Source: Ilex aquifolium (lineage: Eukaryota; Streptophyta; Magnoliopsida; Aquifoliales; Aquifoliaceae). From it: a DNA stretch of 64,000 bases. A program made the position numbers and the translations under genes. The notes beneath the pieces were generated by a model. The model ran no database searches. It was not told the origin of the DNA and saw nothing but the letters and a program-made list of their open reading frames with translations. Shown here piece by piece: positions 1 to 42,071 of this stretch. The stretch's first letter is position 1; each line of letters opens with the position of its first letter. Where the stretch lies: contig OX637404.1 in NCBI GenBank assembly GCA_951799425.1, forward strand, positions 18,810,045 through 18,874,044, in the 5' to 3' direction.

Positions 1-486
1 TGTTTGAAATTTTATCCCATACATTTTTTTTTTTTCTAAAACCATTTCATCACCCATTTTTATCACATTTCTAATCATTTAATATTTGATTAAGTTGTAG
101 TTTAACATAATTTTTATTTCAAACATTATTCATACACGATAATATACACATGTTGAGAAAATTTGTTAGATTAAGTATTTTTGTCTATATTTTTTTTAAA
201 AATAATGGGTAAAAATAAAATTTAAATGATGTAATCAAATAAATGAAGAAAATAAAAAATATTATTTAATATAGTGAGATCGATTTTTTGGACGCTAGAA
301 TTTTATATTTCATCGTGCCTTCAAGCATGAGTTATGACTAGTGTGTATATTGAAGAAGATTACTAAGAACATTGTTTTACTACTTCATTATAATAAAAAA
401 AAAAGAATATTATATGGGTTATAAAGTGATTTAGATTGATTATTATACTTTAATTCTTGAAAATAATTAATCACCTTATATATGTA
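1..486. other. AT-rich intergenic DNA; left edge of duplicated block 1
   Basis: No gene is seen. From about 340 the sequence matches 15,765-15,905 and 33,363-33,485: a stretch with agattactaagaacatt, then a run that ends just before Helitron H1. This is the leftmost recognisable part of the triplicated segment. Confidence 0.6.
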
Positions 487-839
487 CTAGTAATTGCCCG
501 TGCCTGAAGGCACTGCGTGACTCGTAAAAAATGAACAAAAAATTCTCCAAAACAACACCACATATACAAATATATTAGGAAAAAAAATTACTGACAGAAC
601 CAAATCAAATTTATGATAAAATCTTTGGAGAATTCATCACCATTACCATAATCTAATTCAATAACATAACATAATTATAAACTCAATCCACCCACGTAAC
701 AAATATCTCAAACAAAAAACAGCCCACAAATGCAATCATCTATATAATAAAAATAAGTTCACAAATGCTATCAAAAAAATAAGTTTTCCCATTTGAAATT
801 CCACCAGCTTCCAAAAGAATGAATACAACTTGTAAACAT

Positions 840-1830
840 TTGGTACAATCGGTTTCATGTATTTTTTTTTATTGGTCGCTTGTTATTTTTTTGTTTGTGA
901 GAAAATGGTAATGACGATTAGATTGGTTTTGAATTTTTTTCTGCAATTGCAATTAGTTTCAATTGTTTTGGTTTTATTGGGCACTTGTTATTTTTTTATT
1001 TTTTATTTTTTGTTTGCATGGAAGAATTTGTAATTAGCTTGGATTTTATTTTTTTTATTTTTTTGGTGTAATTGGTATCACTTATTTTTTTTATTGGTGA
1101 TTAACTTGGGCTTTGTGTTTTTGTTTATTGGGAGAATATTTATATTTTTGTTTGTGTGGAAGTGGTGATTGTGATTAGATTGGTTGTGAATTTTTTTTTT
1201 GCAACTGCAATTGGTTTCAATTGTTGTTGTTTTTATTGGTCACTTGTTATTTTTTTTTTTTGTATAATTTTTGTTTGTGTGGAAGTGGTGATGACGATTA
1301 CACTGATTTTGAATGTTTTTCTATAACTGCAATTAGTTTCAATTATTTTATTTTTTATTGGGCACTTGTTATTTTTTTATTTTTTGTTTGCATGGAAGAA
1401 TTGGTAATTAGCTTGGATTTTATTATTTTTTTTTTGGTGTAATTGGTATTACTTATTTTTTTTTATTGGTGATTAACTTGGGCTTTGTGTTTTTGTTTAT
1501 TGAGAGAATATTTATATTTTTGTTTGTGTGGAAGTGATGATGGTGATTAGATTAGTTTTGAATTTTTTTGTGTGATTGCAAATGGTTTCAATTGTTTTTT
1601 TTTTACTGGTCACTTGTTATTTTTTTATTTTATACTTTTTGTTTGCATGGAAGAATTAGTAATTAGTTTGGATTTTATTATATAGAATATTTGTTTTTTT
1701 TGGTGTAATTGGTATGATTTTTTTTTATTGGTGATTAGCTTGGGCTTTGTGTTTTTGTTTTTTGGGAGAATTGTTTTGTTTTTATTGGTCACTTGTTTTT
1801 TTTTTTCTGGAACTTGGGGGAATTGTTTTA
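840..1830. repeat. T-rich tandem repeats inside Helitron H1
   Basis: A long T-rich unit recurs: the marker ttaacttgggctttgtg lies at 1,101 and 1,473, with a variant at about 1,735, so spacings are about 372 and 262 bases. Shared submotifs include tggtcacttgttattt, gcatggaagaatt and gtttgtgtggaagtg. The open frames here are by-products of the low-complexity sequence. Confidence 0.75.
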
Positions 1831-2165
1831 TTTTATTTTGAGAACTATATGTTTGCATGTAGTAGATTTTTTTAATTTTTATTTATATTTAAGATTTTCT
1901 GTGGCTGTGTTCATAGAAAAAAATAAAATATTTTCTCATTTGGGTACTGATTGTGGTATTGTTAAACATGCAAATCTTGAGTAAATAAACAATTAAAAAT
2001 AACAATACACATTTAACATATAACATCTTTGTATAATGATAAATTCATGTAAAAGCATGCACAAATAAACCAAGACAAAACTAATTAAAAAGAACAAATA
2101 TTTAATGATAATCACACAACAAATTTTTAATATGAATTAAGAAGAACAAATTCATTACTACTTAC

Positions 2166-2205
2166 CTGGTGAAGAAGAAAATGCGTATTTTGGTAATGTG
2201 TAGCT
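2166..2205 (-). other. Exon-like segment in Helitron H1
   Basis: On the minus strand a pyrimidine-rich stretch ending CACAG is followed by 40 bases and then a perfect donor, CAG/GTAAGT. It reads SYTLPKYAFSSSP in one frame. This is what a captured host exon would look like, but it is too short to assign to a gene. Confidence 0.3.
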
Positions 2206-2456
2206 CTGTGAGAAAATAATAATTAAATTGACAAAAATAATTAGTCAAAATATCACGTACACCATAATTAAAATAGATGCAAGTACAATATAAATTAAGT
2301 AAGCAAGAAAGGGAGTGCTTATAATTATCAAAAATTTAAAGAGAGAAGAAACTTGGAAACCAAAACACACATGAACACAAAAAAAAAACCAAAACACACA
2401 ATGACACACACATGAACACACTGGTAGACAACACACACACCTAAACACAGCCAGAG

Positions 2457-2909
2457 GCACACACAGGCACACGTGAATTTAGCATTTTGTTTCATGGGTT
2501 TTAAATGCATTGTTTCATGTGTTTCTTATCTCATTTCCTGGGTTTGAATTGCAAGCCACATTCTGGGTCTTATGGGTATTATATTTAACTTAAGGACGAA
2601 GGTTTTTTTTTTTTTTTTTTCTCTTTGGTTTTTGCATTACCCTTCTTGCACCGATTGGCTCCAATCTAAAAAATTACAGGAATGCAGGAACACATTCTGA
2701 AAACACTATATTACACACATGAACACCGATTGGCCCCGACGAAACAATATATTACACACATGAACACATTCTGAGTTATTAAAAATACAGCACACAGGCA
2801 CACATGACTTTAGCATTTTGTTTCATGGGTTTTAAATGCATTGTTTCATGTGTTTATTATCTCATTTCCTGGGTTTGAATTGCAAACAACCATTCTGGGT
2901 TTTAGTCTA
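2457..2909. repeat. Direct repeat pair of about 120 bp, with ACACATGAACACA motifs around it
   Basis: A unit containing agcattttgtttcatggg and ctcatttcctgggtttgaat occurs at about 2,457-2,577 and again at about 2,787-2,909. The surroundings (2,370-3,640) are rich in acacatgaacaca and similar short motifs, which produce several spurious open frames. Confidence 0.7.
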
Positions 2910-3900
2910 AAAAATTACAGAAATGAACAAAAAATTAATTTAACTTAGAATGAACACAGGAAATGCTAAAGACCAAGGTGTTCTAATTCAGAAAAAAACA
3001 AAATGCATGCGACTTCGATTAACAAATAGACCACAAAATGATAAACATGAACACATTCTGATAATATTAGAAAAATCTGCCAAATCTATAATATAAAACA
3101 GATTTTTCTAATAATTAAATTAAATAATGACAACAGTAGAATGTGTTCATACCCATAAGAATGTTTTATATTAAATTAAATTTCATATTATTACATGAAC
3201 ACATCATGTAATCATATTATCACATTCATGTAATCATAAAATTTTATAATTTTTCTTATTATAATAACATCTGCCAAATATATAATATAAAACAGTAGGT
3301 CATCACTGGAAATGGAAGTACCAAGGTGTTCGAATTTGTAAACATGAACACATTCTGAATTAGAACACCAAGGTGTGCGTCTTTAGCATTTCTAATTAAT
3401 TTTTCTAATAATAAGTCTAAAAAATTACAGGAATGCAGGAACACATTCTGATAAACATGAACACAGCCATACCAATGGTTTCCTAAATTTTTCAGAATGT
3501 GCATTATTACTGGAAACATTTGGTGTTTCCATATATACACACAAACACAGGCATACCATGAACACAACCTTCACACACACACATGAACACAGCCACACAC
3601 ACACACATGAACACAGCCACACACACACAGTTAGAGAGAGAGAGAAAAAGAAAGAGAAGACCCAGAGAGAAATACCTGGACTGTTTGCAGTGGGTTGCTC
3701 AGTGTGTATTGGAGGCGCAAGGTAGTGACAGAGAAGAAGGGAAAGAGTGTTAATTTGGTGTGGTATGTATTGCAGTGGGGGGAAAAGATTAGAGATAAGG
3801 GAAAGTAGTTTGTTTTTAAAAATGAGAGAGAGATTTAGATGAGAGATAAGGAAGAGAGAGAGAGGTGCCGGGTGAGAGTTGGTGGGAAAATGGAAGAGAT

Positions 3901-4148
3901 GGGTTGCTAGTATTTTTAAAAATGAAAGAGATAATGGAAGAGATTGGTTAGTGGGAGTTACTGGCTTGGTGGATATAAGAGATGGGTTGCTGGGTATGGA
4001 AGAGAGAATGGAAAATGGGTTGATGGGTTGCTAGTATTTTTAAAAATGAAAGAGATAATGGAAGAGATTGGTTAGTGGGAGTTACTGGCTTGGTGGATAT
4101 AAGAGATGGGTTGCTGGGTATGGAAGAGAGAATGGAAAATGGGTTGCT
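3901..4148. repeat. Tandem duplication, period 124 bp
   Basis: Two adjacent, nearly identical copies both begin gggttgctagtatttttaaa, at 3,901 and 4,025, inside the purine-rich end of Helitron H1. The high identity suggests a recent local duplication. Confidence 0.8.
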
Positions 4149-4428
4149 GGGTAATAGAAGAGAGGAGGGAGAGTGTATCGGAGAGAGAAAGAGAGTTATT
4201 GTTGAGATAGGAAGATAAAGTTAAAGGGGAGATAGGAGTTTGTATTGGTTAGTATGAGATAAGGGAAGAGAGTTAGATGAGAGATAGGAGTGTTAGGAAA
4301 ATTTGGTATGAGGACTGTCGGATCAAAAGTCTTGAAATGATCTGAGCCGCGAAAAGCTAAAGACAAACAAAATTAGCTACTTTATTATATAGATGTTTGT
4401 TATTTTTGCTGTGGAAATTTGCTTTCAT

Positions 4429-5172
4429 AAGACATCTCTAATGTTAATCCAAACTCAAACTCAAACTCAAATTTGAATAAAAAAAATGAGTAAAAAATTT
4501 GCTTCCGTATGGTTCTCTTCAATGGGTAAAATCAAATTTATATTCAAATCTTTTTTAAAAAAATTCATACTATCCCAAAACTCATTTCTTTAAATTTTTT
4601 CCTCTAAAACATGTGTATATATAGGATTTCAACAGAAAACTTTTGCCATGACCAAAAATAAAAAAAAAATAAAATGAACTTTTGTGTTGAAATTGAGCAT
4701 CTCTGGTTTGACGCATTCCACACATGTAGGGGAAGACTGGTTTGAGCAAGATCTGGTATTTCACGCATCCACACACCCACGACCGATTATTCCACTAAAA
4801 AAGCAAACAATAACCCACACATAGATGCTCCAACTTTTGTGTCATTGAGCAAGATCTGGAAGCTGGATCCTGGATGAGTGCTATTGAGGTTGATCTGGAA
4901 GCTGGAAGGAGCAGATCTGCAGTGAAGATGGAAGCTGATGGCTATTGGTTTTGGCGGGGAAGACTGGTTCGCAGACCACATAGAGAGAAGAAGATGAATT
5001 TTTGGCTCAAAAAATTGAGTAAAAAGTTTGGTTCTCCTTTAATTTGAGTCAAGAATTGAGTTTTTCTTATTTTGGTATAAGTTAGAGTTAAAGATTGGAG
5101 AGGGTTTTTAGGCTTTATTTTTTTTTTTTTTTCTAAATTTAATTTTGGATAAGGAGCGGAAATGACCTAAAT
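4429..5172. mobile_element. Probable MITE inserted in block 1
   Basis: Block 2 runs from gctttcat directly into taataaaag (about 17,905-17,920), whereas block 1 has about 740 extra bases at this point. The insert starts near GACATCTCTAATG and has the inverted similarity CCTCTCCAATC near 5,100, a common plant MITE-type end. I could not fix the exact ends or the target duplication. The frames in it encode nothing recognised. Confidence 0.45.
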
Positions 5173-5301
5173 AATAAAAGTTAGTTGAAACTTATTTTAT
5201 GGATATGTCTTCCTAGATATATTCAAATCAAATATGGACTTGACTATTGTATTTTTTTAGCTTTTGTGTATTGTTTTATAATCAAAAAAGTTTATCACTT
5301 G

Positions 5302-6085
5302 TGATGATGCAAAAATTGGTCTTATGCACCACTTGTCAAGTGACTGATAATTAATGCAGTAATTAAGAAGTAAGAGAGCAACACAAGCAAGACAAAGATA
5401 TAGAGTGGTTCGGTCAACTTGACCTACGTCTACTATGAAGGGCTAAGATATCCTGAGTATTTTTTTACTTCGAGGAGTGTAGAGAGAGCAGGGAGATACA
5501 AGTTATGAGAGACAGATGAGAGTAATAGCAGATGTGCTCGATTGTGTGTGATGCCCCCAAATATTGGCGAGACTTACAATTTATAGTCGTCTCCTAACAG
5601 ATTGAGGCGGCTTATCAGTAACTAAAAGGCTAATTTGGTGGAGCTGGCGCCGTCTTCTCAACGGATGAGGCAGTTACGGCACTCCCCATAAGATTCGGTC
5701 AAAGGATGACGTGATTGTTGACTTCTTCCAAGACGACGTGGATGAGGCTCTTGAATGACCCTTACTCCAAGGTGGCTTGGATGAGGCGTGTATGAGACTC
5801 TTGGATGACCCTTACTCCAAGGTGGCTTGGATGAGACTCTTAGGATGGCGCTTACTCCAAGGCGGCTTGGATGAGGCTCTTGGGATGGCCTTTACTCCAA
5901 GGTGGCTTGGATGAGGCTCTTGGGATGACCCTACTTACTCCCTTGGTGAAGTAGCTCCTTAAACCCTGATCAGTTTGATTAGGCGTGGACCTCTTTTGGG
6001 CTGGACCAATTGGATCTTTTCTAGTTGGACTCTTAATTCAACCTGGGCTTATAATTTGAGTTGGGCCCTTGGGCCTGACACATCA
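5302..6085 (-). repeat. 3' LTR of the 5.3-9.3 kb Gypsy fossil
   Basis: This LTR is 784 bp, paired with 8,543-9,328. It contains a minisatellite of about 40 bp (cttactccaaggtggcttgg) at 5,761-5,930. The opposite strand carries a TATA-like actataaattgtaagtc, shared with the solo LTR at 38,778. Confidence 0.9.
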
Positions 6086-6663
6086 TTTGCCCCCTAATGC
6101 CCTGTGTCCAATGAAACTTGGAAAAGAGGGCATTTGGTTAAATTTGAATTCTGACTGACGGAGACTCCTTTTGACTAATGACCCATTTTTCTTCTTGATA
6201 CGGTTCATAACCATGAGTGGTAGCAATTTGAGTGAGGCCAGGGAGGTTACCCATGAGCTAGGTGACCGGAGACCGCTGCCAGATGAAGGAAGGGAGATGC
6301 AAGAAGTCATTGTCATCGGAGAGGAGGTAGGCAACGACGGAGCAATCGGCGTCGGCGAGGCAACGGGTGTTGGCGAGCTTGGGTGCTCCATGGGCGTCGA
6401 GGGCGTACAAGTGGGCTCCGGTGGTGAGGCGTCAAAGGCACGACTAGGCCTTGAGGATGGGCGAAGACGCCATGGGCACCGCTGAGGGCGAGGCACCATG
6501 GGCCCCGCTAGGCGAGGTGACCTAGGACGCTGAAGGCGAGGCACTGCGGGCGTCGGCTGGTGGGCGTGCTGATCATGGAGAGGGCATCGTCGTGGGCTAG
6601 GCTCGGCCAAGGGAACACGTAACGACATCACCGGGCGCTGGACACGGCCTCGCGAGCGCGCTG

Positions 6664-7400
6664 GTGAACGGGCGGTGCCGGCGGGATCTTCGATGTTGGG
6701 CTAGCCAGGAGCGGCTGCGGTGGATGACAAAAACAATGTTACTCGAATATCAAAATATTCAACATGATTACCTGGAGAAAGGGACAGACCCATCAGCCTG
6801 TAGAGAAATAGAGGCCGCTTGCGTGAGAGTAAAGACAGAGTTTGAGGTTGCTCGTGAGAGAGCTACGACTCTTGAGACCGAGCTTCTGGCGACCATGAAA
6901 GAGTCGATAAGTTGGAGGTAGGCTGATTGTGAGGCTGCCCACATGAGAATAGAGGCAGAATTTGAGGGTTGCTTGTGAGAGAGCTACACCTTTTAAGGCC
7001 GAACTTTTGGCGAACCATGAGAGAACCGCTAAGCTGGAGGTATAGATTGTCTGCTTGAGAGTAAAGCAGAGATAAACCAAGCTTTTGGCGACCCGTGAGA
7101 GAGCACTAAGCTGGAGACATAGGCTACTTGCTTGAGAGCAGAGCGGAGATAGCTTTTGGCGACCCGCGAGAGAGCTGCTAAGCTGGAAACATATGCTGCC
7201 TGCTTGAGAGCAGAACAGAGATATGCTAAGCTTTTGGCGACCCATGACGAGAGAGCCGCTAAGCTGGAGACATAGGCTACCTTCTTGAGAACAGAGCAGA
7301 GATAGGCCAAACTTTTGGCGACCCACAAGAGAGCCGCTAAACTAGAGACATAGGTTGTCTTTTTAAGAGTAGAGCAAAGATAGGTCAAGCTTTTGGCGAC
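6664..7400 (+). pseudogene. Antisense coiled-coil region of the Gypsy fossil, with tandem repeats
   Basis: The strand opposite to gag holds a heptad-like frame at the left (residues such as REIEAACVRVKTEFEVARE), then about 6-7 imperfect copies of a unit of about 65-70 bp. The unit centres on agcttttggcgacccgtgag and ctaagctggagacataggct. The repeats look like expanded coding sequence for a coiled coil. Gypsy-related Tat-lineage elements are known to carry extra antisense reading frames. The region is degraded. Confidence 0.55.
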
Positions 7401-7495
7401 CCGCGAAATGATTCACCTCGCTTGGACCTGTTGATTTCCTTGACATTCATATATTTTTGAGCTTTTGCCAATAATTCTGGCATGCTCTTTAGTGG

Positions 7496-8492
7496 TCATT
7501 TCATTACTGAAAAGAGAAAACTCGATGAGCGGAGGCCTCCCAGAAAGGTGGTCATGGTGACTTTGTCATTGAGCTTCTCGATTTGGAGAACCTTCTCGTT
7601 AAAACGAGTGTGGTAACTCCTCAGACTCTCATCTCGATCTTGTTTTACGCTGAGCAAATGAGTGGCAGGCTTCTGCTGGCGGCATCCACCAATGAACTGT
7701 GCCACAAAGGATCTGCTTAATTAGGCGAAGGAGCCTATGGAGGCTGGGATGAGTTTGGCGAACCACTGTCAGGCATATCCCTTTAAGGTAGTCGGGAAAG
7801 CCCTACACATGATTTTCGTCAGGAACGTTGTGCAGCTGCATCAACGACTTATAAGTTTCAAGGTGATCAAGTGGGTCTTTTGTGCCGTCCAAGGTTTCGA
7901 CAAATAGCATTTTAAACTTTTGGGGAAGATGGTAGTTTGCCACATCTGGCACAAAAGGTGTGTTAGTTCGCCTTACAAGGTACTCCACAGTTTCTGATCC
8001 TTGTGCCTTCATGGCATTGAAGACGTCGCCAAGTTAATTCTGTACTTCTTTGATTTTTTCCTCCCAGTGATTTGGGGCTCCTTTGGAATTATCATGGAAA
8101 TAGCTCTCATGCTCCACACTTTGATTCTTGCCCTCGTCCTCTTGGAAATGAGGGTCTCCACCATGAAAAAAGGGAGTTGGAGGAGGAGGTGGAGTTCCCT
8201 CATGGTTCTGACGAGGGGCTCCCCTGTATGGGACGCCCAAATGGGGAGCTCCTTGATGCCTAGGGCGTAGAGCTTCTCTGGCTTGATGCCCTCCGGGTTG
8301 TGCTCCTCCTTGTTGTCCAGCGAGCATCAATTGCAGGATCTGTTGATTCTGAGTCACGAGCTGCTGCATTGTTTCCAGCATCTGTTGTGCGTTCTGAACA
8401 GGATTGGTTGGTGGAGGGGCAACCTCATCCTCTCGTGGTGGATTGTCTTCGGGCTGATTCATGGACCTGGTGGTGATCACTAGGTACAACAA
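7496..8492 (-). pseudogene. gag-like region of the Gypsy fossil
   Basis: Next to the 5' LTR on the minus strand lies a proline/glutamine-rich N-terminal part. It is followed by capsid-like sequence with DPLDHLETYKSLM and, further on, QDRDESLRSYHTRFNEKVLQ, both characteristic of plant Ty3/Gypsy gag. The gene is broken, with several disruptions. Confidence 0.8.
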
Positions 8493-8542
8493 GAAAAGTG
8501 ATTAGGTGAAAATTTTGTCGATTCCCACAGATGGCACCAAAC

Positions 8543-9328
8543 TGATGATGCACAAATTGGTCTTAAGCACCACCTGTCAAGTGACTGATAATTAATGCAG
8601 TAATTAAGGAGTAAGAGAGCAACACAAGCAAGACAAAGATGTAGAGTGATTCGGTCAACTTGACCTACGTCCATTATGAAGGGCTAAGATGATCTGGGTA
8701 TTTTATTACTTCTAGGAGTGTAGAGAAAGCAGGGAGATACAAGCTATGAGAAACAGGGGAGAGTAATAGCAAATGTGCTCGATTGTGTGTGATGCCCCCC
8801 AAATATTGGCGGGGCTTACAATTTATAGTTGTCTCCTACCAGATTGAGACTGCTTATTAGTAACTAAAAGGCTAATTTGGTGGAGCTGGCGCCATCTTCT
8901 CAACGGATGAGGCAGTTACGTCGTTCTCCATAAGATCCGGTCAAAGGATGACATGGTGGTTAACTTCTTCCAAGGCGGCGTGGATGAGGCTCTTGAATGA
9001 CCCTTACTCCAAGGTGGCTTGGATGAGGCGTGTATAAGGCTCTTGGGATGACGCTTACTCCAAGGCGGCTTGGATGAGGTTCTTGGGATGGCCCTTACTC
9101 CAAGGTGACTTGGATGAGGCTCTTGGGATGACGCTTACTCCAAGGTGGCTTGGACGAGGCTCTTGGGATGACCCTGTCTACTCCCTTGTTGATGTAGTTC
9201 TTTGAACCCTAATGAGCTTGACTGGGCGTGGACCTCTTTTGGGGCTGGACCTATTGGATCTTTCTAGTTGGACTCTTAATTCAAACTGAGCTTATAACTT
9301 GAGTTGGACCCTTGGGCCTGACACATCA
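8543..9328 (-). repeat. 5' LTR of the 5.3-9.3 kb Gypsy fossil
   Basis: This LTR is 786 bp and pairs with 5,302-6,085. It has the same minisatellite with the same 50-40-40 spacing (units at about 9,003, 9,053, 9,093 and 9,133), so the array existed before this insertion. Confidence 0.9.
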
Positions 9329-9348
9329 ACTTGTGTGGGTATTTTTAT

Positions 9349-10808
9349 GGGATATTTGGAGGTCGGTTCCCCTATATGAACTTATTTGGAGATAAGTTCG
9401 TCAAGAAAATTTATTTGATTTTAAGTCCATTTTTTGTCAATTTTACTATTGTAACCATTCTCTATAGAAATGTTATAAACGACGTTTATGGACACAATAA
9501 ACAGCCATATACATCTCTTTTATAATCGCTTTCAAATCCGGCTACAATCTTTCAAGCCACAATGTTTCCTTATCCAATAAATAAGAAACCGGCATTTACC
9601 AAAAATCGTTCATATTCAAATTTTAAACCCATTACATTCTATAAAATACAATTTCAATTTACTATTTCAGTTTACTTTGGACTCCATCGACAAAATATTA
9701 ATATTGAATATTAATATTTAAAAAATAACAATAGTAACATACTCAACAAAGATATTAACATGGTCACTAAAAAAATAGTAACATGGTAAAAAAGTAATAA
9801 CAATTAGGGATTTAATTTGCCAAAGTGGACATTAACCTTATAACCAAGATTCAAGAGAACTCATACATTAGTACTAAATTAAAGTGTTATAGATTTTGAC
9901 TTTGTTGATTTTTTTGTTGCGCAAGACAATCGAGTATTCTTTGGTTGTGTTACTGTGGAAAAAGTTCATGTTACTGTACGTGAACCGAAAATTAGAGTTC
10001 AGAATTTCGATATCTTGATGTTCACAATTGATGTTGAGTGTCGTAATTCAACTGTCGATTGTGTGTTACTACTCGTCATTTGGTAAATTTTCAATTTGTG
10101 GATTGTATTTTCACTAAAATCATTCGAAAATTGATGTTATTGTAAAAAAACTATTGTCTTGTATTTTGTAAAATTAGATGTGTTACTGAGCACAAAGCTT
10201 TGATGTTACTGTGAATATTAAAGTGTATGTTATATAATATACGTCTCAAGGTTTACAATTGTATGTTAAAATTCACTATAATAACATTAGTGTTAGTATA
10301 GTAACAAGACTGTATTGGTAACACGACCCTAATTGTAATTTTAATCATATAGTAACATGAGTGTTACTATATATTAACATTCGCGTTACTGAACTCTGTT
10401 GTCATTGTTCAGCCTCCCTATAGTATGCATTACTGTTGTTAAGGAAATTTTGTAATCTGATTTTGACTTAATAGACCAACAATTTATTCGTACATTAAGC
10501 TTCACATATATAACTATCAGAATATATAACTTCCATATAAAACTTCTGTTAATTATCATAATATATAATAAACAGTTTCCATATATAACTCAATCAAGGG
10601 TTTCTATATATACCTCAATGATCTAACCTATGTGACTTTCCATAACTGGACAAAACTAACACCGTTAGGGGTAATTTTGAGATTTAAAAAATAAGTGGAC
10701 TTAAGTACCTACATATAAGTTTAAACATGGACTTACCCCCAAATAAGTTTCCTTCTAGGATTCAAGTCATTATAAGTCCATTTAGGGGGACTTACCCTCA
10801 ATTTTCAC
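9349..10808. mobile_element. MULE-like element, 1.46 kb, 9-bp target duplication
   Basis: It is flanked by the perfect 9-bp repeat TATTTTTAT (9,340-9,348 and 10,809-10,817). The ends are diverged inverted repeats: GGGATATTTGGAGG at the left and, reading in from the right, GTGAAAATTGAGGG, each followed by a version of CCCCTA-ATG-ACTTAT. Nine-base duplications mark the Mutator superfamily. Block 2 (18,185-18,200) reads through this site without the insert. The interior is AT-rich with scattered gttact motifs and no protein domain. The 15,915-17,877 element has similar ends. Confidence 0.75.
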
Positions 10809-11261
10809 TATTTTTATTACTATCGTGATAATTATTTTTACAATTTTTCTTCGGTACAAAAAAAATTACCATTTTTGTGGGTAATTTTTACTACTATTGT
10901 GATAACTATTTTTACAATTTTTCTTCAATACAAAAAAATTACTACTTTTGTGGACAATTTATTACATTTGTGGATCTTTTGTACCATTGTTGTAGTAACT
11001 ATTTTTATCACTTTTTTTAGTATTACAACAGTGGTAAAAACACACATAACAATAATAAAAGTACCCATAAATGTAATAAATTGGTATCGAAATTCTATTT
11101 TTCGGTACGACAATCAAATCCATCAAATATACGTGTAACCTTTCTAAAAAGTCTGAGAGCGATGGAGTCCAATGAAAAAGTACAAGGTTACAAACACAAC
11201 AACATTATTATTTTACGTTATTGTCACATCATTAGATCAATAAATTAGGTCAATTTTTTAG

Positions 11262-11782
11262 TGATAAATTACACTTTATTCCCTTGGACTATTACTTTTG
11301 TTTCATTTTGCATTCTCAACTATAAATTTTTTCATATTACACCATAAGGTATTAATTTTGTTTCATATCACTCCAATAGATAACGATTGTCAATTTTTTG
11401 ACGATAAATGTATATGTGAGTGATCTGTACTGCCAATAAGCAACTGCTTATTGCACATGTGCAAGTCAAAAATCAAGAAAATACCCATCCGTGACTTTGC
11501 CTTTCCTAATCTCCAAATTTTCTTCCTTTGGCCGACCTTCTTTTTCTTTCTAGCAACTAGTAGGTTGTAAAAGATGTAAAATAAAGCGGTACTAGACAAT
11601 TGACAAGAAGCTCTTTGAGATTTTTCTCACTCCTTTGACAGATTTTCAAGTTTGTCGTTATCTATTAGAGTGATATGAAACAAAATTGATACTTTATGGT
11701 GCAATGTGAGAAATTTTATAGTTGAAGGTGAAAAGTAAAATAAAGATAATAATTCAAGGGGATGATAAAGTGTAATTTACTC
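11262..11782. mobile_element. MULE-type MITE, 521 bp
   Basis: The inverted ends are TGATAAATTACACTTTAT and, from the right, GAGTAAATTACACTTTAT. Flanking 9-mers are attttttag and attttttat (8 of 9 match). The paralogous stretch in block 2 (about 18,560-18,600) lacks the insert. The frame inside on the minus strand has no recognisable product. Confidence 0.75.
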
Positions 11783-30970: not shown

Positions 30971-31649
30971 AGCTCTTCTTTGTGTTCATGTAATTCTATC
31001 TTTCTTTTTTCCTGTACTTCGAACTTGTGTTTTGGAATACAAACTTTAAAAAGTAATTTCTGAATTTTGTTTTGAATTGTGATGTGTTGTGATTTTGATT
31101 TGAGACATAACTCACATGAATTTTCTTCTCCTTGTACTTCCCTTGCCCCCCTTACTTTGAGAAGTGTTTCAGTCCTTCTTGAAGCAAGATTATGGACTTT
31201 ATGAGCTGCCAAGTTCTTTTGATGAACTAAGGAACTCATCAGGAACTTCATTATCCTGATGTGAGCAAGGTTCTTGGAACTGAAGGTCTCAAAGACTTGC
31301 TATAGAGATGCTATGTTGCCAACCGAGCTGAGCTCAAATATGAGGAATATTCTGTTTAGGTGGGGTCAGACTCATTTCCGGTTGTTTTGAGTGCATTAGG
31401 AGGGGTAATTTGTGCTGACTCTTTTTCCCGCATTTTCTCAACTGCTTTCCATAGCCGTAACCACCTTTATTAATTAGGAAACCAAAAAGACCGCCTACTC
31501 TGCCCTTCGTGTGACTCTTGGTTTCCTAAAAATTGGCAATCTTCTTTAAGTCTCCTAACATCTGCTGAGTTTCTTCTTCTTTGCCAAAAATATTTCTGAG
31601 TTTCTTCTTGATCCTTCGTGGTTATCCTCTGTTTCCACCGTAATCCTTA

Positions 31650-32768
31650 ATGGCTGCCTCCGCTTCTTCTCTGTTCAAGGAATGCACTTCCTTCGGAATC
31701 GAATGGAGGTGGCATTGTCGCTATTTGTCTCCTTCGACCTTAGAGCCTTCTGATTTGGTAGCCATCAAGAAACGGTTTTTTCCTGATCTTGATTTGCCTC
31801 TGCGAGTCCCTACCCCTGACGAGCCCTGCAACTACCTTTCTCGAGGGGAAGTCTGCCTTTTTGAGGGTGCAATGGACATGGGACTTCGCCTTCCCATTCA
31901 TCCAGCTATCGGGCGAGTTCTTGCCCATTATGGTCTATGCCCTTCTCGCCTTTCCCCACGAGGATGGGCCGCTATGGTGAGTTTTTTCCTGTTCTGGCGC
32001 CTGTATGGCAGCGGTAGGTTCCCTTCTGTTTTCGAGTTCCTTTACTTCTTCGAGATCGAGGAAGACGATGCCCCCTGCTTCAGCTTCTTTCGTTGAAGGC
32101 TCTTTAATTCACCTCCTTTGGTTCTAGGCCTTCCTTCCAATCCCGAATGGTGGTCTAATTTTTTTGCTTCTGGGGAGTCTTGGCGGTCCCCTGAGGTGCG
32201 CGGTCGTGATGCTAGGATTCCACGGTCCTGGAAGAGCTTCTCTCGCATTGGTAAGCTCAAGTTGAGCTCTCTTGAACTTTACTTTGAAGACATATTCTTA
32301 TTATATTCTTGTTGCGCAGGTCCACCTGATCTGGATGTGCCAGAGATGATGATTATTGACGAGTTGCGGCTAGTGGAGCTTAGGACTTATTCTGAGTTGA
32401 TGACGAGTGCAAACCTTTATTTGCTTGGGGTTGAGACTACTGAATATGAATTTTCCTCCGTTCCCTACTCTTCCTGGACTTCTTTCTCTGATTCTGACGA
32501 GGAAGGGGATTCCTACGAGGAGGGGGATACTGGTGCGAGTTCAAAGAGGCGTAAGAGGGATGGCTCTTTCTCACCCGACTCTCTTTCCACTATTTTTCTT
32601 ACTCCAGCAGGTCAGAAGGTTCTTGACTCACTCTACAAGGCTGAACAAGAAAGGGACGAGCTGAAGGAGGAGAATGCTCGCCTAAATGAGGAAGTTTCCG
32701 AGCTTAAGTCACAACTTAAGAAGGATTATGAGTTCTGTCTCCTTGTACTCCCTTTCTTTCTTGATTAA
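31650..32768 (+). pseudogene. Second antisense unit: PF04195-like domain plus coiled coil
   Basis: The segments at 31,650-32,096 and 32,118-32,768 repeat the layout of the first unit. LRLPIHPAIGRVLAHYGLCP corresponds to FPLHPFIKTVLQHFNVCPSQ of the first, and a coiled coil (KAEQERDELKEENARLNEEV) closes the unit. The two are clearly paralogous but diverged, so the element carries two related passenger genes. It is a fossil. Confidence 0.6.
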
Positions 32769-33074
32769 TGCCAAACTCTATTTCTCTTTTTCTTGAATGC
32801 TTGTATTCTTGAACTCTTTGAATGTCAAATCTTTCTTTTTGAAAGTGCATGTTCATGTATGAGCTGAGGGGCTTATCCCTTATCAGTTGAGCTATGGAAC
32901 TCATTCTGAATTCTGCAAGCTCTAGATGCTGAGCTGAGGAGCTCATCTTGAATTTTATAAGCTTAGAAGCTTATCGTTTGTTTATGAGCTGAGGAGCTCA
33001 TCTTTCATTTTATAAGCTTAGAAGCTTATCGCGAGCTGTAAAGCTTGTTTCACATGTGCTTATTATATATTTAT

Positions 33075-33362
33075 TTCCCGAGATCTTTGTCTTCTACCAT
33101 GGCATCCTCCTTAGTATTTGGAGAGGATCTTGGTTGGTTAAGGGTTTTATGCCTCGATTCCAGCTTGACTCCTACTTTGGAGGTGTCAGCTATCGTCTTG
33201 CTGTCTCCTCATCCTTTCCCCTATTGTCTTGCTTCGGGGAGCTCCAATACTGGCTGGACGAGCCCTGACCATAGATTGGATGAGCTCTGCTATTCTTGTC
33301 CGAGCTACCGAGCTGAGCTCATTTCCTGAGCTCATGTTTGAGGTTTATTTTAGGTATCATCA
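33075..33362 (-). repeat. Partial LTR at the right end of the 26.9-33.4 kb element
   Basis: It matches 27,306-27,593 closely. Just to its left (32,900-33,050) are short repeats of gagctgaggagctcat and ataagcttagaagcttatcg. Confidence 0.8.
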
Positions 33363-33367
33363 AAGAT

Positions 33368-33655
33368 TATTAAGAACATTATTTTACTTCACTATAAACA
33401 AGAATATTATGTGCTAGAAAGTGATTTAGATCGATTATCATATTTTAATTTCTTGAAAATAATCAATCTCCTAATATGTGCACGTTTGTTATTTTTGCTG
33501 TGGAAATCGTATAGGTGTATTTATATAACACCCCCTCTAGTTTTTAAAATATCACTCTACACCCCTGTTAGTTTTTGTCTGTTAACAGACCTAAAAGATT
33601 ACGTAATTTTACTACCCTTACTAGAACTCCCATTTTATAAGAGTACTAGTAATTG
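33368..33655. other. Block 3 backbone between two insertions
   Basis: No gene is seen. 33,363-33,510 aligns with block 2 at 15,785-15,910 and with block 1 at 360-486 plus 4,394-4,420. After that comes a stretch with tctgttaacagacctaaaag that resembles MULE-MITE sequence and is cut by Helitron H2. Confidence 0.6.
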
Positions 33656-34173
33656 CCCGTGCCTAAAGGCACGAAGTAACGAAAAATTGAATTAAAACTT
33701 GAAAAAAACTACCGTGCCTACAGACACTTTGCAACCTAAAATAAACCATCAATTTGAAATAATTTTTACATCATTTACTTCAATTAAATAAATTGAAATC
33801 AATCTACTCCCCACTAATTTTTCAAAAATTTCGACCAAACTTCCTCTAAAAATAGGAGTCCAAGAAGATTTCAACCTGTCTACAAAACTCACAATCATAC
33901 ATAACAATCATAATAATGGCTAGTATCAATACAATTCAATTCTATTTCCACCACAATCATCATACATCACAACTCAATGCCATACCCAACTATTAATTCA
34001 AATCAAAACCAAACATAACCTCATAACCATGTGTAATTAGTTCGCCGTATTAAACACGGAATAAACAAAACACATGCAAACTGCACACAAAAAACATACA
34101 CATGCACAAATACAGAAAGAACTTCCTTCATCATCATCTTCTTTGGAGCTAGGAGTTACATTCTTTAAGAAGC

Positions 34174-34238
34174 TCACATGTTCTTAGCTTCTGATTTCTC
34201 AATTTCTTCCCATGTTTTGACTAATGACGGCCTCTTAT
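34174..34238 (-). pseudogene. Captured remorin-like exon fragment in Helitron H2
   Basis: After an acceptor (TTACTTCAG) the minus strand reads KRPSLVKTWEEIEKSEAKNM and then a stop. This closely resembles the start of the conserved C-terminal remorin region (KRLSLIKAWEESEKTKAENK). Remorins are plant plasma-membrane nanodomain proteins. Only about 20 residues are present, so this is a fragment, not a gene. The family assignment rests on recalled motif similarity. Confidence 0.5.
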
Positions 34239-35366
34239 CTGAAGTAAAACTCAAGGAAATTACTCAAGTGATAGGCAATAAATTTAATCACAGAGTACAA
34301 TGTGAATGAGTAAATAAAGTGACAGAGTCTACCCTTTTGATTGCTTTGGATGTAATCAATGGTGTGTCTTTACACACAATTGACTGGAGAAGAAGGTTCC
34401 ATGTAATCCCCTCATGAAGTTTTAGTTACTGATCATGGAGCAAAGTTGACTTGGAAATAGCAATTGGAAGCAATAAAAACTTGCTAAATAAGCCTACTTG
34501 ATCAGAGATGTCGCCGATCCAATTTCTGCAGGTATCTCAAGTATCGAGTTAAACGAAACATCTAATGATTTTAGCAAGTGAAGCCTGCCAAATGAGAATA
34601 AGAAGTATACAATGATGTAAGAAAGAGAGAGAATGAGAGAAAGACCTTAAAGAAAACCAATTAGCAGTTTAACAGTTAATTCAATGCATATCAACACACA
34701 ATCAATTCAAATCCATAAGTTGTCTAACAAAAGGATAACCTATTCACAGCCTTATCTCTGATCATCCAGATGACTTACATAATGGCTCATCATATTGGCA
34801 GCAACACCCAAAGCCTTATTATGCATTGGAGATACCTAGGTTCTTCTGTTTGGCAGCCTGTTCAAATCTGCTGGAATATCAAACAGTTAAATAAATGGGC
34901 CTGCATGAATGAGTAAATAAAGAGAAAAAATAATTTTCCTTGCTTTGATTTATTTTGGTGGTTTTGTTAATTTGTATGGACTGGGTGTTGTTTTTTGGTA
35001 GTTTGATTTTTTCTATTTTTTGATTGTTATTGGGTAACCCAGTTTAACTTTAACGTTATCAATATCAACGAAAAAAAATCAAGTTTTCCACCAAAAAGAC
35101 TATAACTCCGATCAATACACTTCGATACGAAAAACCGGCAAATCAAGTGATTAAAGTAAACAACTAATCCGAGAAAAATTCTGATCAACCAAGATAACAA
35201 ATAAAAAAATCACAATACCTCAATTTTATCACATAGCCTTACATAAATAATCAAACCACCAACCATACACCAAAGGAATACATAACTAATGTTGTCAACC
35301 AAACCATTAATAACGAACCAAATAAACACCAAAAAAATATTCAAAATTCACTTATTGAATTTTTTT

Positions 35367-35402
35367 TTAGTTAATGTATGTGCTTGAAAGCACTGTGTAA
35401 CA
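35367..35402 (-). mobile_element. Internal degenerate Helitron 3' terminus
   Basis: The plus-strand stretch from ttagttaatgtatgtgc to agcactgtgtaac mirrors the H1 terminus (ctagtaattgcccgtgcc ... ggcactgcgtgac). It keeps a 5-bp stem (GTGCT/AGCAC) but has TTAG in place of CTAG. The distance from here to the H2 5' end is 2.3 kb. Confidence 0.6.
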
Positions 35403-36562
35403 AAATAAAAATTAATAATTTTAAAAAAAATGACCATCAGTAAGAGAAAAGTAATGCATATAGTCCATTTAAGAGACCAAATAAGTTGCTAGACTTGATA
35501 AACAAAAATCTTTGGGCAGAATTTTCTTCAAGAATAAGACCCAAAGAATCTAACAACAAAGGCCTATACTAAATTAGAGACCAAAAATTTAAACAGTAAA
35601 CAAACAACAAAACAAAATAATGCGACTCAATCTCTTTTTTTTTTTTTTTTTGGTGAACCTCGACAGCACGAGGAAGTTTTATTGCTTTCCAGAAAAATTA
35701 CACCTAGCTAAGGGAACATATGTATCTTACCCCTCAATGCAATCTAATTACATGGAATAAATAAAAGAAATCAAAATATGCATGCTTAGAACAATAATTA
35801 TTATCCTATGCATGCTGCCTTCTTAACTAAAAAAGTCCAACTGATATAGGAACTCAGCTAGCTATAAGTGTCAAAGCATTCCAGCTGAACATGAAGAGAT
35901 GTCCAGGAAAAGAAGTCCAGCTGCAGCTCCAGCTGAACAGAGACGTGAACATTGAAAGAAATGTTACTGCTGCCTACTGATAATCTCTTTTAGCCCCAAT
36001 GACTTAGACTCATTTCTTTCATGGAGCAATGGTGTTTAAACCTATAATCCATATTGAATGCAATACCTAGACGTAAGATAATGAACAAAATCAAATTAGT
36101 TTTACTTAATCACCAAACGAAGTTATATTTTACTCCATCATTAACTGAGACAAATTACACAAACTAACGAATTATAAACAAAAACTCAAATTAAAACATA
36201 ACCAACAATCATAAATCATATTAAAGACAAACATATCATCCTAATTCAAATTCATTCAAAAGTACAAAATTTCTATAATGGTACAATACCATCATAATTA
36301 TATAAGTTTTCCCACAATCATATGTAACTGGTAATTACCTTCGTATTTCAAGCATCACATTGCAATAACAGGTTGCTAAGCTTTCTCTGCTAACCTTCCC
36401 AAATGAACTTTTAATAAAGAGAACACCGTGACAATATCAAAAAAGGGAAAAAAATAGAGAATAGAACATTGAGTCACAGGGTCAATCAAATAAAAACATC
36501 AACAGTAACAAAAAGTCTGAAAATAACAAAACAAAGAAAGAACAATGGTTAAAATAGCTTAC

Positions 36563-36644
36563 AATAATGGAAACTAATTGCAAATTTTTCCTTGCTGAGC
36601 GCCATGTTTTTTGCCTCCAATACGAAAATGTGGTCCTACTGCTC
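36563..36644 (-). other. Exon-like segment in Helitron H2
   Basis: Bounded by TTTTGCAG and a GTAAGC donor on the minus strand, it reads AVGPHFRIGGKKHGAQQGKI in one frame, with a stop shortly after. The parent gene is not recognised. Confidence 0.3.
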
Positions 36645-37689
36645 CTGCAAAACAAAACAAAGGATTTAGTTAGAAAATAATTAAACCCCAAGGGAACCCA
36701 ACAAATGACGTATAAATAGTCACAAAATCAAACAAACCCCATCCAAGGGATACATAAATTCAACCAACAACCTTTAGAAAACCAAGAAACCAAAGACAGA
36801 GGACCATACAGAAACCAAAAACCCAAATCCCTGTCAAGCATTTTCTCAAACATCTTGCGAGCAAGCCAAAAAAATGGAAATTAACAAAGCTGTGCGTGTT
36901 GTGCGTTTGGGTGTGTGTACGTGTGTGTTGTGCGTCTAGAGGGTGTGTGTGCGTTGAGTGTGCATACAGAATAAAGGGAGAGAAAGTGGAGCTGTGGAGG
37001 GAGAGAAAGGCGGGATATGGGCTGGGGTTTGGGTTTGGGTATGGTGGAGTTTGAAATGGAGTAAATAAGAGAGAGGGAGAGGAAGGAGAAGAACAGGGGA
37101 GGGGGAGGCAGACAAAGAGATGGAAATACCTGGCGAAGATGGGTGGCAGACCACTGTTGCTATCAGACGTCATTGGGTGATGATGGGTCGCCATTACCGT
37201 CGGGGCAGAGATAAAAGAGAAAGTGCAGAGAGAAAAGGGAGAGATTAAAGCACAGAGGTGAAGGAGAGAAATTGGTGGGGGTAACAGAGGAGAGCAAGGG
37301 GAAGATTTGAGAAGACGAAGGTGCGTTCTGGGTCTTTATCCGCAGAGAAGAGAGAGAGAGTTTGGCTTGGACTGCAGTGCTTGGATGCCGTGTGTGTGCA
37401 GCCAAAATCAGTGGGATTTGGGTTTTGGATGAGATTAGGGAAGATTTGAAAGATTTCGAAGAGAGAGAGAGGCGTGAGTCAGGAAACTGAGTTGGGCGGA
37501 AAAAAAAAATTTAGGACTAACTGTAGACCATTGGATCAAAATTTTTGAGATGATCTGAATCGTCTTTTATGTTGGGGTTACGTTGTCCGTTAGATTTGGT
37601 TATGTTTCGTGTCAAAACGATCTGGATCCCTCTTTGTCTTTTGGATTCAAACTTCGCTCTACTTTATTATATAGATTATTCGATTTTTC

Positions 37690-38480
37690 CATTATTAACA
37701 TAATTGCATCAAATTAATATAAAATTAATCTATAATTTTATCAAATTAATATCAAATTGACCTTTAATTTTTTTGATTAATATTAAATTTTATTCAATTA
37801 ACATTAAATTTTATCAAATTAACGCTAAATTGATATTAAATTTCATGCACCAAATTAACATTAAATTTTGCCAAATTAACATTGACATTCATCAAATTAA
37901 CATTCAATTCATCCAATTAATATTCAATTTTATTAAACTAATACCAAATTGATATTCAATTTCATAAAATTAACACTAAATTAATATTCAATTTTATCAA
38001 AATCACATTAAACTTCATCAAATTAATATTCAATTTGATCTAATTAACTATTAATTTTATTAAATTAATATTAAATTTTATCAAATTAATACAAGATTTT
38101 ACCAAATTAACGTGAAATTGATTTTAAATATTATAAATTTATTATTTTATTCCAACAAACTAATATTCAATCTCACCAAATTAATATTCAATTTCATAAA
38201 ATTAATACCAAATTAATATTTAATTTCATCAAATTAACCCAAAATTAACATTTAATTTCATCAATTTAACATCCAATTTATCAAATTAACATTAGTTTTT
38301 TGATTGAATTTTAAATTAGCATTTAATTTCATCAAATCAATACCAAATGATCATTCAATTTTTTGAATTTAATATTTAGTTTTATCAAATTAATATTATT
38401 TTTAAAAATTAATATTTTGTTTAATCTATTTTTTATAGGAAAGATTCTTTTTAATCCAATGAATATTTAATTTAATTTAA
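37690..38480. repeat. AT-rich minisatellite-like array (aattaacattcaattt units)
   Basis: About 800 bp is built of imperfect repeats of atcaaattaatattcaattt and aattaacattaaattt, with units of about 20-40 bp, right after Helitron H2. No coding potential is seen. Short tandem unit changes rather than a transposon explain it best. Confidence 0.75.
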
Positions 38481-38777
38481 TTAATACTAAAAATGATGGT
38501 TTCTATTACTTTAAGCTTATTTTATATGACCAAGGGTAAATTTAGCAACCCATAAAAGAATAAGTCATCATCATATCACATTTTTTTGCTTGACAATAAC
38601 GGTATTAAACGTCAAGAATAATTTGTAAAACGTGTATATAAATTATAGGAGTGTACAATGATTTTTAAAAATAAAAAAGATTGAGTGAAATATGATTTAA
38701 ATTTAAGAATTTTCATTGAAATTTACCCTATTATTAATCATATAAAGCCAATTCTATATCATTTTAGTGTTACTTAC

Positions 38778-39356
38778 TGATGGACCAAGTCCAAGGGCCC
38801 AGCTCATGTTACAAGCCCAAGGGCCCAACTTCAAGAGGTCCAGTTAGCCAAGCCCAAAGAGATCTACACCCAGTCAAGCTCATCAGGGAGCTACATCAGC
38901 TTAGCTACGTCATCAGGAGAGCATCCAGGAGCCTCACCTTCACCACCTTGGAAAGAGTCAGCCCTCACTCCATCCTTGACCGAGTCTCATGGAGAGCACC
39001 TCAACCACCTCGCCCGTTGAGAAGAAGTCGTGAGCTCCGCTGACATAGATACTTAGTTGCTATTGAGTCGCCCCAATCTGTTAGAGAGCGACTATAAATT
39101 GTAAGTCCTACCAACACTTGGGGGGCAAGACACTCAACTGAGCACATAGCTTCTCTCTCACTCTAAGCTTGTACCCTCTGCTCTCCCTACACTCTTGAAT
39201 TAATAAAGCACCCGCGCGACCCTAGCCATTGAGAAGTGGACGTAGGTCAGATCGACCGAACCACTATAATTCTCGTCTTCTCTCTCTCTACTTTAATTAC
39301 TGCATTTACTACTCACACTTGACAGGTGGTGTACAAACCTAATTTGTGCATCATCA
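38778..39356 (+). mobile_element. Solo LTR of the Gypsy-type family, 579 bp
   Basis: It starts TGATGGACC and ends TTTGTGCATCATCA, with flanks CTTAC and CTCAC (4 of 5). The second half matches the LTRs at 5,302 and 8,543 in reverse orientation: actataaattgtaagtc (a TATA region), the ctcactctaagc region, gacgtaggtcag, and the end. No internal region or second LTR is nearby, so it is a recombination remnant. The frame at 38,780-39,043 is LTR sequence, not a gene. Confidence 0.75.
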
Positions 39357-40169
39357 CTCACAACCGACAACTTTACACAGCTATGTCCCTCACCTCGCAG
39401 CCTATCGGGTCCCATCCAACCAAACAACTTCCCCATCAGTGGACCAAATAAATGTAAGAAATTGAGTTCTCAATTTATAAAAATATAATAATGATTAAAA
39501 TTAATTTAATTTTTATTTATATAAATTTAATAGTATAAAATTTATCTTAATTTTTTAAAATACACAATTAAAGAAAACATCATTAATTCCAAATAATCTC
39601 ATTAATTTACACCTACATATCTCTTCTCTTTCCCCTACCTCTCTTTTATTTTTCTCTCTATTGACCTTAATTTTTAAATGTATAATTAAAGAAAAAAATA
39701 AAAATAAATTACTATTTAACATATAAATATTACACGATTAATATTCCATTTTTAATATTATAGTGTCTTCAGCAACATAAGTATTCCTAATATTCATATA
39801 TTATTTTATTATTTAGAGAAATGTTGAAATCATGTACACATATATGATATAACCTTCGAAAATCACATATACGTATAGGAATTTTTGTCTCTAAGACCAT
39901 CTTGATTCCGGACGTGGATCACAAGAGCTTCACATGACTTATACCTTTACTTATGGCACATTAAGTTATTTTTTCGTATCATACCGAAATTTATTATAAA
40001 ATAAAAGAGATGTTGTGTCATGATTATAATAAAAGTAGGAATGTTTAGAATCGATCTTAACAGTTTAGGATCAATCCTGAAGTTTTTTTGTTTTTATTTT
40101 TGTTTTTGGGCCGTAACTTGATCTCAAATGAATTAGAGCTAATCTTATTAAATCAGCATGACAAAATGG
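39357..40169. other. Block 3 backbone downstream of copy C
   Basis: No gene is seen. It includes gtcccatccaaccaaa (compare 17,970-17,990) and a run at 39,840-40,165 that aligns with 11,815-12,070 and 18,600-18,790. An unrelated AT-rich insertion separates the two. Confidence 0.6.
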
Positions 40170-41476
40170 TAGGAGGTGAGCTTGAGGGAGGGTGGAAATG
40201 ATATTGTCACAGCAAAGAAGAATGCTGTGGCAGCAGAAAATGCCCCAGCTCTATCCAGTATTTGTGACTGAATTGGATACTTGGAAGCAACAAATCTGGC
40301 AACAAACAGAGGGGTAAAGGCCAGTAAAATAAAAAGGGGAAATTACATCTAAACGCCGTGAAATTTGTCATTTAATCACTTAAATTTTTTAATATTTGAA
40401 ATATTATATACAGATTCCTTAAAGTTTGTACGCGCGTAATATTTAGACCCCTGCCGTTAATATCAGTTAGTATATCTATTAGTAAATTATACTCAAACTC
40501 TCTGAAGTTAGTAGAGGTGTAACACTTAGATCTCTCGAGTTTAAAATATTATACTTTGACCCCTTATTAGTTATAGAACTAACGAAATCTATTAAATGAT
40601 CAAATTATCCCAATTAAAGATAAAAAAATATTATATCCATTACAGTTTGACCATTTATTTGATTTTTTAGTTTTATTCCAATAGATAGTATAATTGTATG
40701 CAAATAAGTATTGAATTGAGTTCTTTGATATATTTATACTGATTACTATTTTTTTCTCAAAAAATTGGGGTTTTGTTTGGTTTTTATGTTAATGAATAAT
40801 ATAATGGAATATACAAATGTGTTGATTAGACTTATTTCAGATCTTCGTACTTGATGATGAAAAAATTTATCCATTGTGAAAAGTCCATTGTGGGACTTGT
40901 GTCTAAGTCCAACCCATCTTGTCAAGAATTCTAATTTGAATAGGATTCTACATATTATGGATAAGCTAAATTTAACCTTCAAATTTTAGGGGTTTAAGTA
41001 TTACACGCTTCAAATTGTAGGGATTTGGATGTAATTTACTGACGGACATTAACAGCAGGGTCTATGTGTTATGTATGTACAAACTTTAGGGAATTTGTGT
41101 ATAATATTTTAAATATTAAGGGATCTAAGTGATTAAATGACAAATCTCAAGAGATTTGAGTGTAATTTTCCAAGTGAAAGAAGGACAAGGAAGAGCAGAA
41201 GCAGTTGGCTACAATTTTGGACTGAACAGAGGGCTATTTCAGCTGTGCTGATGCTAAGTATAATGCAATTAATACCATTGGCCAGTCCCGATTCTGCTTG
41301 GGGTTAGGTGGGACGGTGTCGTTGCCCAGAGGAGGAGGAATAACTTCTTGTTCATGATGTTGAGGCTGCTCTTCCTGCACGATGGTGGATTTGGACGGGA
41401 TGAGATACCGACGACGGTGCTGGCAAGGTGGTGGCGGTGGCTGTGCCTGGTTAAGTCTTGGACAAGAAAAGTTCAT
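40170..41476 (-). pseudogene. Membrane-protein gene copy C, split by a MULE-type MITE
   Basis: The N-terminal part (from MNFSCPRLNQ at 41,476) and the first membrane segment (DWPMVLIALYLASA) match copies A and B. The sequence is interrupted at 40,336-41,171 by an 836-bp element and resumes with the code for the later membrane segments, down to about 40,170. The 3' end is shortened by about 50 bp relative to the others. The upstream DNA is unlike that of A and B, so the TATA box is gone as well. A pseudogene. Confidence 0.8.
40336..41171. mobile_element. MULE-type MITE inside gene copy C, 836 bp
   Basis: Ends GGGGAAATTACATC and, from the right, GGAAAATTACACTC form inverted repeats that continue through tttgtcatttaatcactta. 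The flanking 9-mers are aaataaaaa and aagtgaaag (6 of 9), consistent with an aged 9-bp duplication. Copies A and B are uninterrupted here, which fixes the insertion site. Confidence 0.75.
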
Positions 41477-41520
41477 CCTCCTCTTGATTGCAAAAATTGA
41501 CTTCTTGAAAATAATCACTT

Positions 41521-42071
41521 TTTTTTTTTTAATATTTATATAAAAATATATAAATAATTCAGATCAGATCATAATTAAATCGGATATAAATATATCTAAA
41601 TTTGAATCCGTGAAATATAAGATATCAAATTCGAATTCAAGTTCGAATTATCAATAAAAAAATATTAATTCATATCTGAATAATTATATTTGAGTCAGAA
41701 TTCGATCCATTTATAGGCCTATTGAAAAGTAACTCGAAGACAAAAACTTAACCGGTAAAATGGACAAAATTCTAGCCTGTCGAATGTAACCAACAAGTAG
41801 AGGCGTCAATTGGATCATTCAAGTGGATTTGTATTGTGTCGGAGTATCAGTGTTTCAATAAAGGGGTTAACTCACATGATGACTTTTGTTGGAATATTAT
41901 GGCCCTTCCCCTTTTCATATGTGCCTGTTAATTTGACGAGAATCGTAATCGGCGTTATGGTTGGATCACATTGTTATTAATTAATTTTATTGTGGGTATA
42001 AATTGAAATAATTGATCTTTGCAGGTAAAAATTGAAAATTTTATAATCTTTCGAGGTACAAACTGTCATTC
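41521..42071. other. Intergenic DNA with a MITE remnant just upstream of the next gene
   Basis: No gene is seen. It includes an AT-rich unit with cggatataaatat and aattcgaattc motifs. The end of block 3 is at about 41,850 (caagtagaggcgtcaattgg, also at 14,918). The run at 41,988-42,055 (gtataaattgaaataattga, ttcgaggtacaaactg) matches the inner inverted repeat of the 12,078-type MULE MITE. Confidence 0.55.

Follow-up and report, generated by a model that had tools for sequence, protein, structure and literature searches.

Three collinear copies of a small intronless open reading frame, unequally lengthened by transposon insertion, in Ilex aquifolium

The stretch of Ilex aquifolium DNA analyzed here, referred to as the window, comprises 64,000 bases of contig OX637404.1 (assembly GCA_951799425.1; C14:18810045-18874044 in the numbering used for this genome) and contains three direct, collinear copies of one segment, designated A, B, and C, which lie side by side on one strand. 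Each copy harbors a version of a small open reading frame (ORF) on the minus strand, and a variable load of transposon insertions. An earlier note on this DNA had described three such copies, running in one order and orientation, as a duplication that carries a novel membrane-protein gene. The existence of three collinear, same-strand copies was borne out by self-comparison of the window and by alignment of both the flanks and the ORF; the limits of the copies, the name given to the duplication, and the standing of the gene are revised in what follows.

Extent and relationship of the three copies

Copy A occupies positions 1-14,981 of the window and extends for 1,037 bases further left (to C14:18809007), copy B runs from 15,249 to 19,884, and copy C from 26,654 to 41,834, giving spans of approximately 16.0, 4.6, and 15.2 kb. 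The starts of A and B had previously been placed at 340 and 15,560, and the spans at 14.6, 4.3, and 15.2 kb; the start of B is now moved to 15,249 because the left flank that A and B have in common is longer than that of C. This additional flank of approximately 320 bp was not found in C, whose start lies at 26,654. Copy B is the most compact of the three, with no match to A or C found past 19,884, and copy C is the most diverged. A right end is common to A (14,915-14,980) and C (41,792-41,834), with 43 aligned bases at 98% identity, and the gap between the end of A (14,981) and the start of B (15,249) holds a dispersed repeat at approximately 15,049-15,203. In the 20 kb to the left nothing matching B was found beyond copy A, and in the 20 kb to the right the only matches to B were two short ones (144 bases at 64% and 39 bases at 90%).

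The non-coding flanks align between the copies as well as the minus-strand ORF does. The outcome that would have spoken against a duplication, namely alignment of the genes and not of their flanks, was checked by the self-comparison and did not occur. The left non-coding flank of copy B (15,249-15,917) matches copy A at -1037 to -825, at -311 to -21, and at 341-486, and copy C at 26,654-26,872 and 33,363-33,497, and the region upstream of the ORF of B (19,330-19,727) is aligned to positions 13,402-13,828 of A. Copy-versus-copy BLAST searches, performed with an expectation value (E) <= 1e-6 and low-complexity filtering on, yielded 13 matches between B and A (8 on the plus strand), 6 between B and C (all 6 on the plus strand), and 16 between A and C (9 on the plus strand); when the A-C comparison was listed at a looser cut-off, matches between long terminal repeats (LTRs) were among its minus-strand rows. 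Reversed-sequence queries produced 0, 0, and 0 matches for the three copy pairs, and copy B produced 0, 0, 0, and 1 matches against four other 16-kb stretches, the single match, of 138 bases, being probably copy A itself, given that the stretch in question overlaps the left end of A by 138 bases.

The same confinement to the array was observed throughout the genome searched (800,232,872 bases in 103 contigs). All five matches to the flank at 15,560-15,925, self included, lie inside the three copies, as do nine of the ten matches to the gene block, again with self included, the tenth being a 57-bp match on C7; this DNA search skips very common words, and absence elsewhere holds at that sensitivity only. 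The four anchor strings that the earlier note had placed in all of the copies do not all occur in every one. The first occurs unchanged in both A and B and carries one substitution in C; the second is exact only in A, carries one substitution in C, and has in B a diverged form that is detected by BLAST, with none there within 4 edits; the third is exact in C and differs by one substitution in B, and a search of A with 2 edits allowed did not find it; and the fourth occurs unchanged in both A and B, with no collinear occurrence in C within 4 edits. The stretch close to this fourth anchor in copy B (approximately 18,053-18,442) is a repeat dispersed through the genome, with at least 86 matches (best 40 of 2,596 candidates scored), so that by itself it provides no evidence for duplication.

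Identity over the aligned blocks amounts to 89.4% between A and B, 86.7% between B and C, and 84.4% between A and C. In its usual sense, a segmental duplication is 1 kb or longer with an identity of no less than 90%, a level that none of the copy pairs reaches; the term is a loose one for copies that are adjacent and only 84-89% identical.

The order in which the copies separated was approached through a three-way comparison of five blocks (974 sites). A and B agree against C at 98 sites, B and C against A at 46, and A and C against B at 25, with all three differing at 7; the first class exceeds the second with p = 1.8e-5, and the second exceeds the third with p = 0.017, the latter excess indicating that A has changed faster than B. 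Kimura two-parameter (K2P) distances are 0.115 for A-B, 0.148 for B-C, and 0.177 for A-C. The shared sites, together with the longer left flank of A and B, support (A,B),C as the tree of the copies. The dispersed repeat of B at 18,053-18,442 has a counterpart at the corresponding position in A, later cut by an LTR element and by another insertion, and it was not found at that site in C, as this tree predicts. Two successive duplications would fit these data, with the first separating C and the second separating A from B.

Insertions within the copies

The proposal that unequal transposon insertion stretched the copies at a later time is supported by target-site duplications, and much of the size difference between copies comes from insertions. 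Copy A contains an LTR retrotransposon at 5,302-9,328, assigned by eye to the minus strand from its minus-strand ORFs, whose LTRs are 90.9% identical (K2P 0.098) and which is flanked by the target duplication ACTTG. It also contains a foldback element at 12,078-12,831, with a 9-bp target duplication (AACTTTATT) of a size that we take to be typical of Mutator-like elements, and a further element at 11,262-11,782, which is 81% identical to another element lying at approximately -840 to -307, to the left of the window, and whose target duplication carries one mismatch. Another foldback element, at 51,437-52,182, is approximately 83% identical to the foldback element of copy A.

In copy B, an insertion of 1.96 kb (15,917-17,877) is flanked by the short repeat GTTATTT, recognized by eye, with no target duplication passing the script test. 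Copy C holds a plus-strand LTR retrotransposon at 26,872-33,362, with a shared LTR stretch of 291 bp that is 97.9% identical (K2P 0.021) and the target duplication AAGAT, as well as a minus-strand, solo-LTR-like stretch at 38,778-39,357, which shares 72% identity with the LTRs of the retrotransposon in A and whose CTTAC/CTCAC flanks, noted by eye, failed the script test. A foldback element at 40,339-41,176 interrupts the ORF of C; its target duplication is imperfect by eye, and none passed the script test. In addition, a dispersed repeat at 41,509-41,721, found at 39 or more other places (best 40 of 895 candidates scored), lies approximately 30 bases ahead of the ORF in C, at the position that a TATA-like box occupies in A and B. 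For three elements, those bounded by ACTTG, AACTTTATT, and AAGAT, the target duplications are accompanied by uninterrupted counterparts in other copies, and the LTR divergences of the elements in A and C are consistent with insertion after the duplications. In the interval between B and C, decayed Copia-type fragments are present at 20,422-21,561, with RVT_2 above the cut-off and gag_pre-integrase below it.

The open reading frame and its relatives

The ORF is intronless, and only copy B (18,796-19,329, minus strand) keeps an intact reading frame, with 178 codons before the stop. The first third of the encoded protein is proline-rich and the remainder is hydrophobic, with several strongly hydrophobic stretches; AlphaFold predicts, at low confidence (mean predicted local distance difference test score 53), four helices at residues 72-93, 99-125, 130-150, and 153-177. 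In copy A (12,904-13,386, minus strand) a 1-bp deletion leads to a TAG stop after 161 codons, such that the last 14 residues of B, which make up roughly half of the predicted fourth helix, are missing. In copy C the 5' part (41,177-41,476, minus strand) carries a 2-bp insertion that causes a frameshift and a stop, and the 3' part (40,171-40,338, minus strand), split from it by the inserted element, has a 3' end unlike those of A and B. Judged by these reading frames, C has become a pseudogene and A a truncated copy, and only B could encode the full predicted four-helix membrane protein; B is possibly active. A TATA-like box (CCTATAAAAGC) lies approximately 80 bases upstream of the ATG in both A and B; C has other TATAAA strings, 64 and approximately 240 bases before its ATG, and the repeat at 41,509-41,721 carries such strings.

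No Pfam family scored above the cut-off for the ORF, and a search of NCBIfam with its protein returned nothing, which lends partial support to the novel membrane-protein gene proposed in the earlier note; the breakage of two of the three copies and a ratio of non-synonymous to synonymous substitution (Ka/Ks) close to 1 tell against it. A weak Pfam match to DUF983 (PF06170; E = 0.003-0.01) covers a hydrophobic stretch and is likely compositional, and membership was rejected at 18.3 and 16.7 bits against a curated cut-off of 22.6. The single weak match in the PDB (9f63_A, E = 0.73) was taken as chance. The ankyrin membrane proteins with a PGG domain (PF13962), a family of plants, resemble the ORF in the size of the membrane part and, as we presume, in the number of helices; 115 matching stretches of this domain were listed in the same genome and in none of 14 control genomes. 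Membership in this family was likewise not supported, there being no Pfam match, no PGG tripeptide in the ORF, and an hhalign probability of 0.2 in a comparison with 14 PGG domains of this genome (of 20 loci fetched) in which the ORF was represented by two sequences only. Searched against its own genome at E <= 0.001, the protein of B gave four matches (self included; 32 candidates scored), all four in the three copies. The helix part, at E <= 10, matched eight places, of which three are in the copies; the five others were taken as chance, with 24-26% identity, E values of 0.2-7.8, and stops in four of the five.

Pairwise Ka/Ks values are 1.36 for A-B (bootstrap 0.62-4.46), 0.90 for A-C (0.55-1.57), and 1.15 for B-C (0.64-2.65), the codons of both C pieces having been pooled for the latter two; treated separately, the pieces give values between 0.63 (5' piece of C, compared with A) and 2.38 (3' piece, compared with A). 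Taking C as the outgroup allowed 19 changes to be placed on the branches of A and B, 2 of them synonymous and 17 non-synonymous, with one more left unassigned. No protein constraint since the duplications is detectable, although the limits are wide. Between A and B, the ORF has nevertheless diverged less than the flanks have (24 of 480 versus 89 of 963 sites, p = 0.005); when its synonymous sites alone are compared with the flanks (5.5 of 114.8, rounded to 6 of 115), the difference is not significant (p = 0.17). The 963 flank sites come from four of the eight non-ORF blocks aligned between A and B, namely the upstream block and the three that lie on the left; the count leaves out two blocks that are 17% different, one being the 3' block (39 of 228) and the other the dispersed repeat (66 of 388), as well as two blocks of 55 bp (8 differences) and 43 bp (2 differences). 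Low divergence of the ORF between A and B, combined with a Ka/Ks that is not low, sits badly with a simple story. Within the helix-coding part (96 codons; 12,904-13,191 in A and 18,838-19,125 in B), 2 synonymous and 6 non-synonymous changes separate the two copies, and gene conversion between A and B could be the source both of the low ORF divergence and of the similarity of the helix part.

These observations evoke the question of whether the ORF was ever a working gene. The array could be real and the ORF a chance open frame within a duplicated non-coding stretch, which would account for the Ka/Ks near 1, the 2 synonymous versus 17 non-synonymous changes, the two broken copies, and the lack of both a family above cut-off and a clear relative elsewhere in the genome. 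Such an origin is harder to reconcile with a frame of 178 codons that encodes several strongly hydrophobic stretches and four helices, albeit predicted at low confidence, with a TATA-like box that A and B carry at corresponding positions, and with an ORF less diverged than its flanks; we regard it as unlikely, while giving it real weight. The suggestion that the ORF encodes a lineage-specific (orphan) four-helix membrane protein, triplicated locally and lost twice, with one copy under little constraint, is held only tentatively and is in our judgment rather improbable. If true, it would capture a young gene as it emerges or dies out, with one intact and two broken copies for the study of gene loss; unless the ORF is such an orphan gene, the locus has little importance beyond genome annotation.

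History of the array and its surroundings

The locus is best explained, with a probability that we estimate at about 0.92, by local tandem duplication, twice in succession, of a stretch containing a single small ORF without introns, after which transposons inserted independently and two copies decayed. In a first step, a unit bounded by the ends of C (26,654 and 41,834) would have been duplicated; in a second, the left copy, together with approximately 320 bp more of left flank, would have been duplicated again to generate A and B. Separate transposon insertions in each copy would have followed, and finally the decay of C to a pseudogene and the truncation of A. The mechanism was likely unequal crossing-over or replication error, with junctions that are too altered to be read. 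Tandem duplication by unequal crossing-over is presented as a standard source of gene copies in PMC7565063. Like the tandemly arrayed genes of plants, the copies are adjacent, lie on the same strand, and have common flanks; they differ in that two of them have been lengthened to approximately 15-16 kb by transposons, and nothing else about them is unusual. The duplication is thus ordinary in kind, and the locus represents a clean case of tandem duplicates hidden by transposon insertion, in which target duplications and shared sites order the events.

A number of observations weigh against this history. The copy junctions are not preserved: B has no recognizable right end past 19,884, the right end of A matches C over 43 aligned bases only, and between B and C lie 6.8 kb of other sequence; with the B-C junction lost, the term 'tandem' therefore rests there on proximity, order, and strand. 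The 3' block (18,603-18,798) is almost evenly divided, with 19 AB and 16 BC sites. The LTR divergence of the element in A is close to the divergence between A and B, and the timing of that insertion consequently rests mainly on its absence from B. Lastly, the extra stretches at 487-4,390 and elsewhere in A, and at 33,508-39,372 in C, are only partly resolved into named elements.

It could also be envisaged that three retrocopies, or copies captured by transposons, landed close together, in keeping with an intronless ORF and with the transposons that lie all around it. The copies align in one order over non-coding DNA to either side of the ORF, with A and B alignable in the upstream region too, no poly-A tract was seen after the stop codon of B, and the copies lie only kilobases apart on one strand, all of which make this origin very improbable; the preference of the earlier note for tandem duplication over retrocopying is well supported, with flanks, order, strand, target-site duplications, and tree in agreement. 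Tandem near-copies can likewise come from haplotypes assembled end to end, an artefact that is scarcely credible here, with copies that are 11-16% different (84.4-89.4% identity), private insertions of different ages (LTR divergences of 0.098 and 0.021), and a resolved tree.

A search of the whole window against Rfam at gathering scores found no RNA. To the right of copy C, a plus-strand gene possibly starts within 42,093-45,332 (ATG at 42,222), and five short single-frame stretches on this side have no Pfam family above the cut-off. A minus-strand ORF of 457 codons at 49,230-50,603 carries a C-terminal RING-H2 finger (PF13639, E = 7.7e-13), and its predicted product is likely a ubiquitin ligase. 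Further right, stretches of a WDHD1/CTF4-like WD40 gene lie within 56,199-59,056 on the minus strand, with matches to PF24817 (56,199-57,362, E = 1.4e-63) and PF00400 (58,631-59,056, E = 7.9e-11); an ORF at 53,018-53,575 may, as we assume, be the 3' end of this gene.

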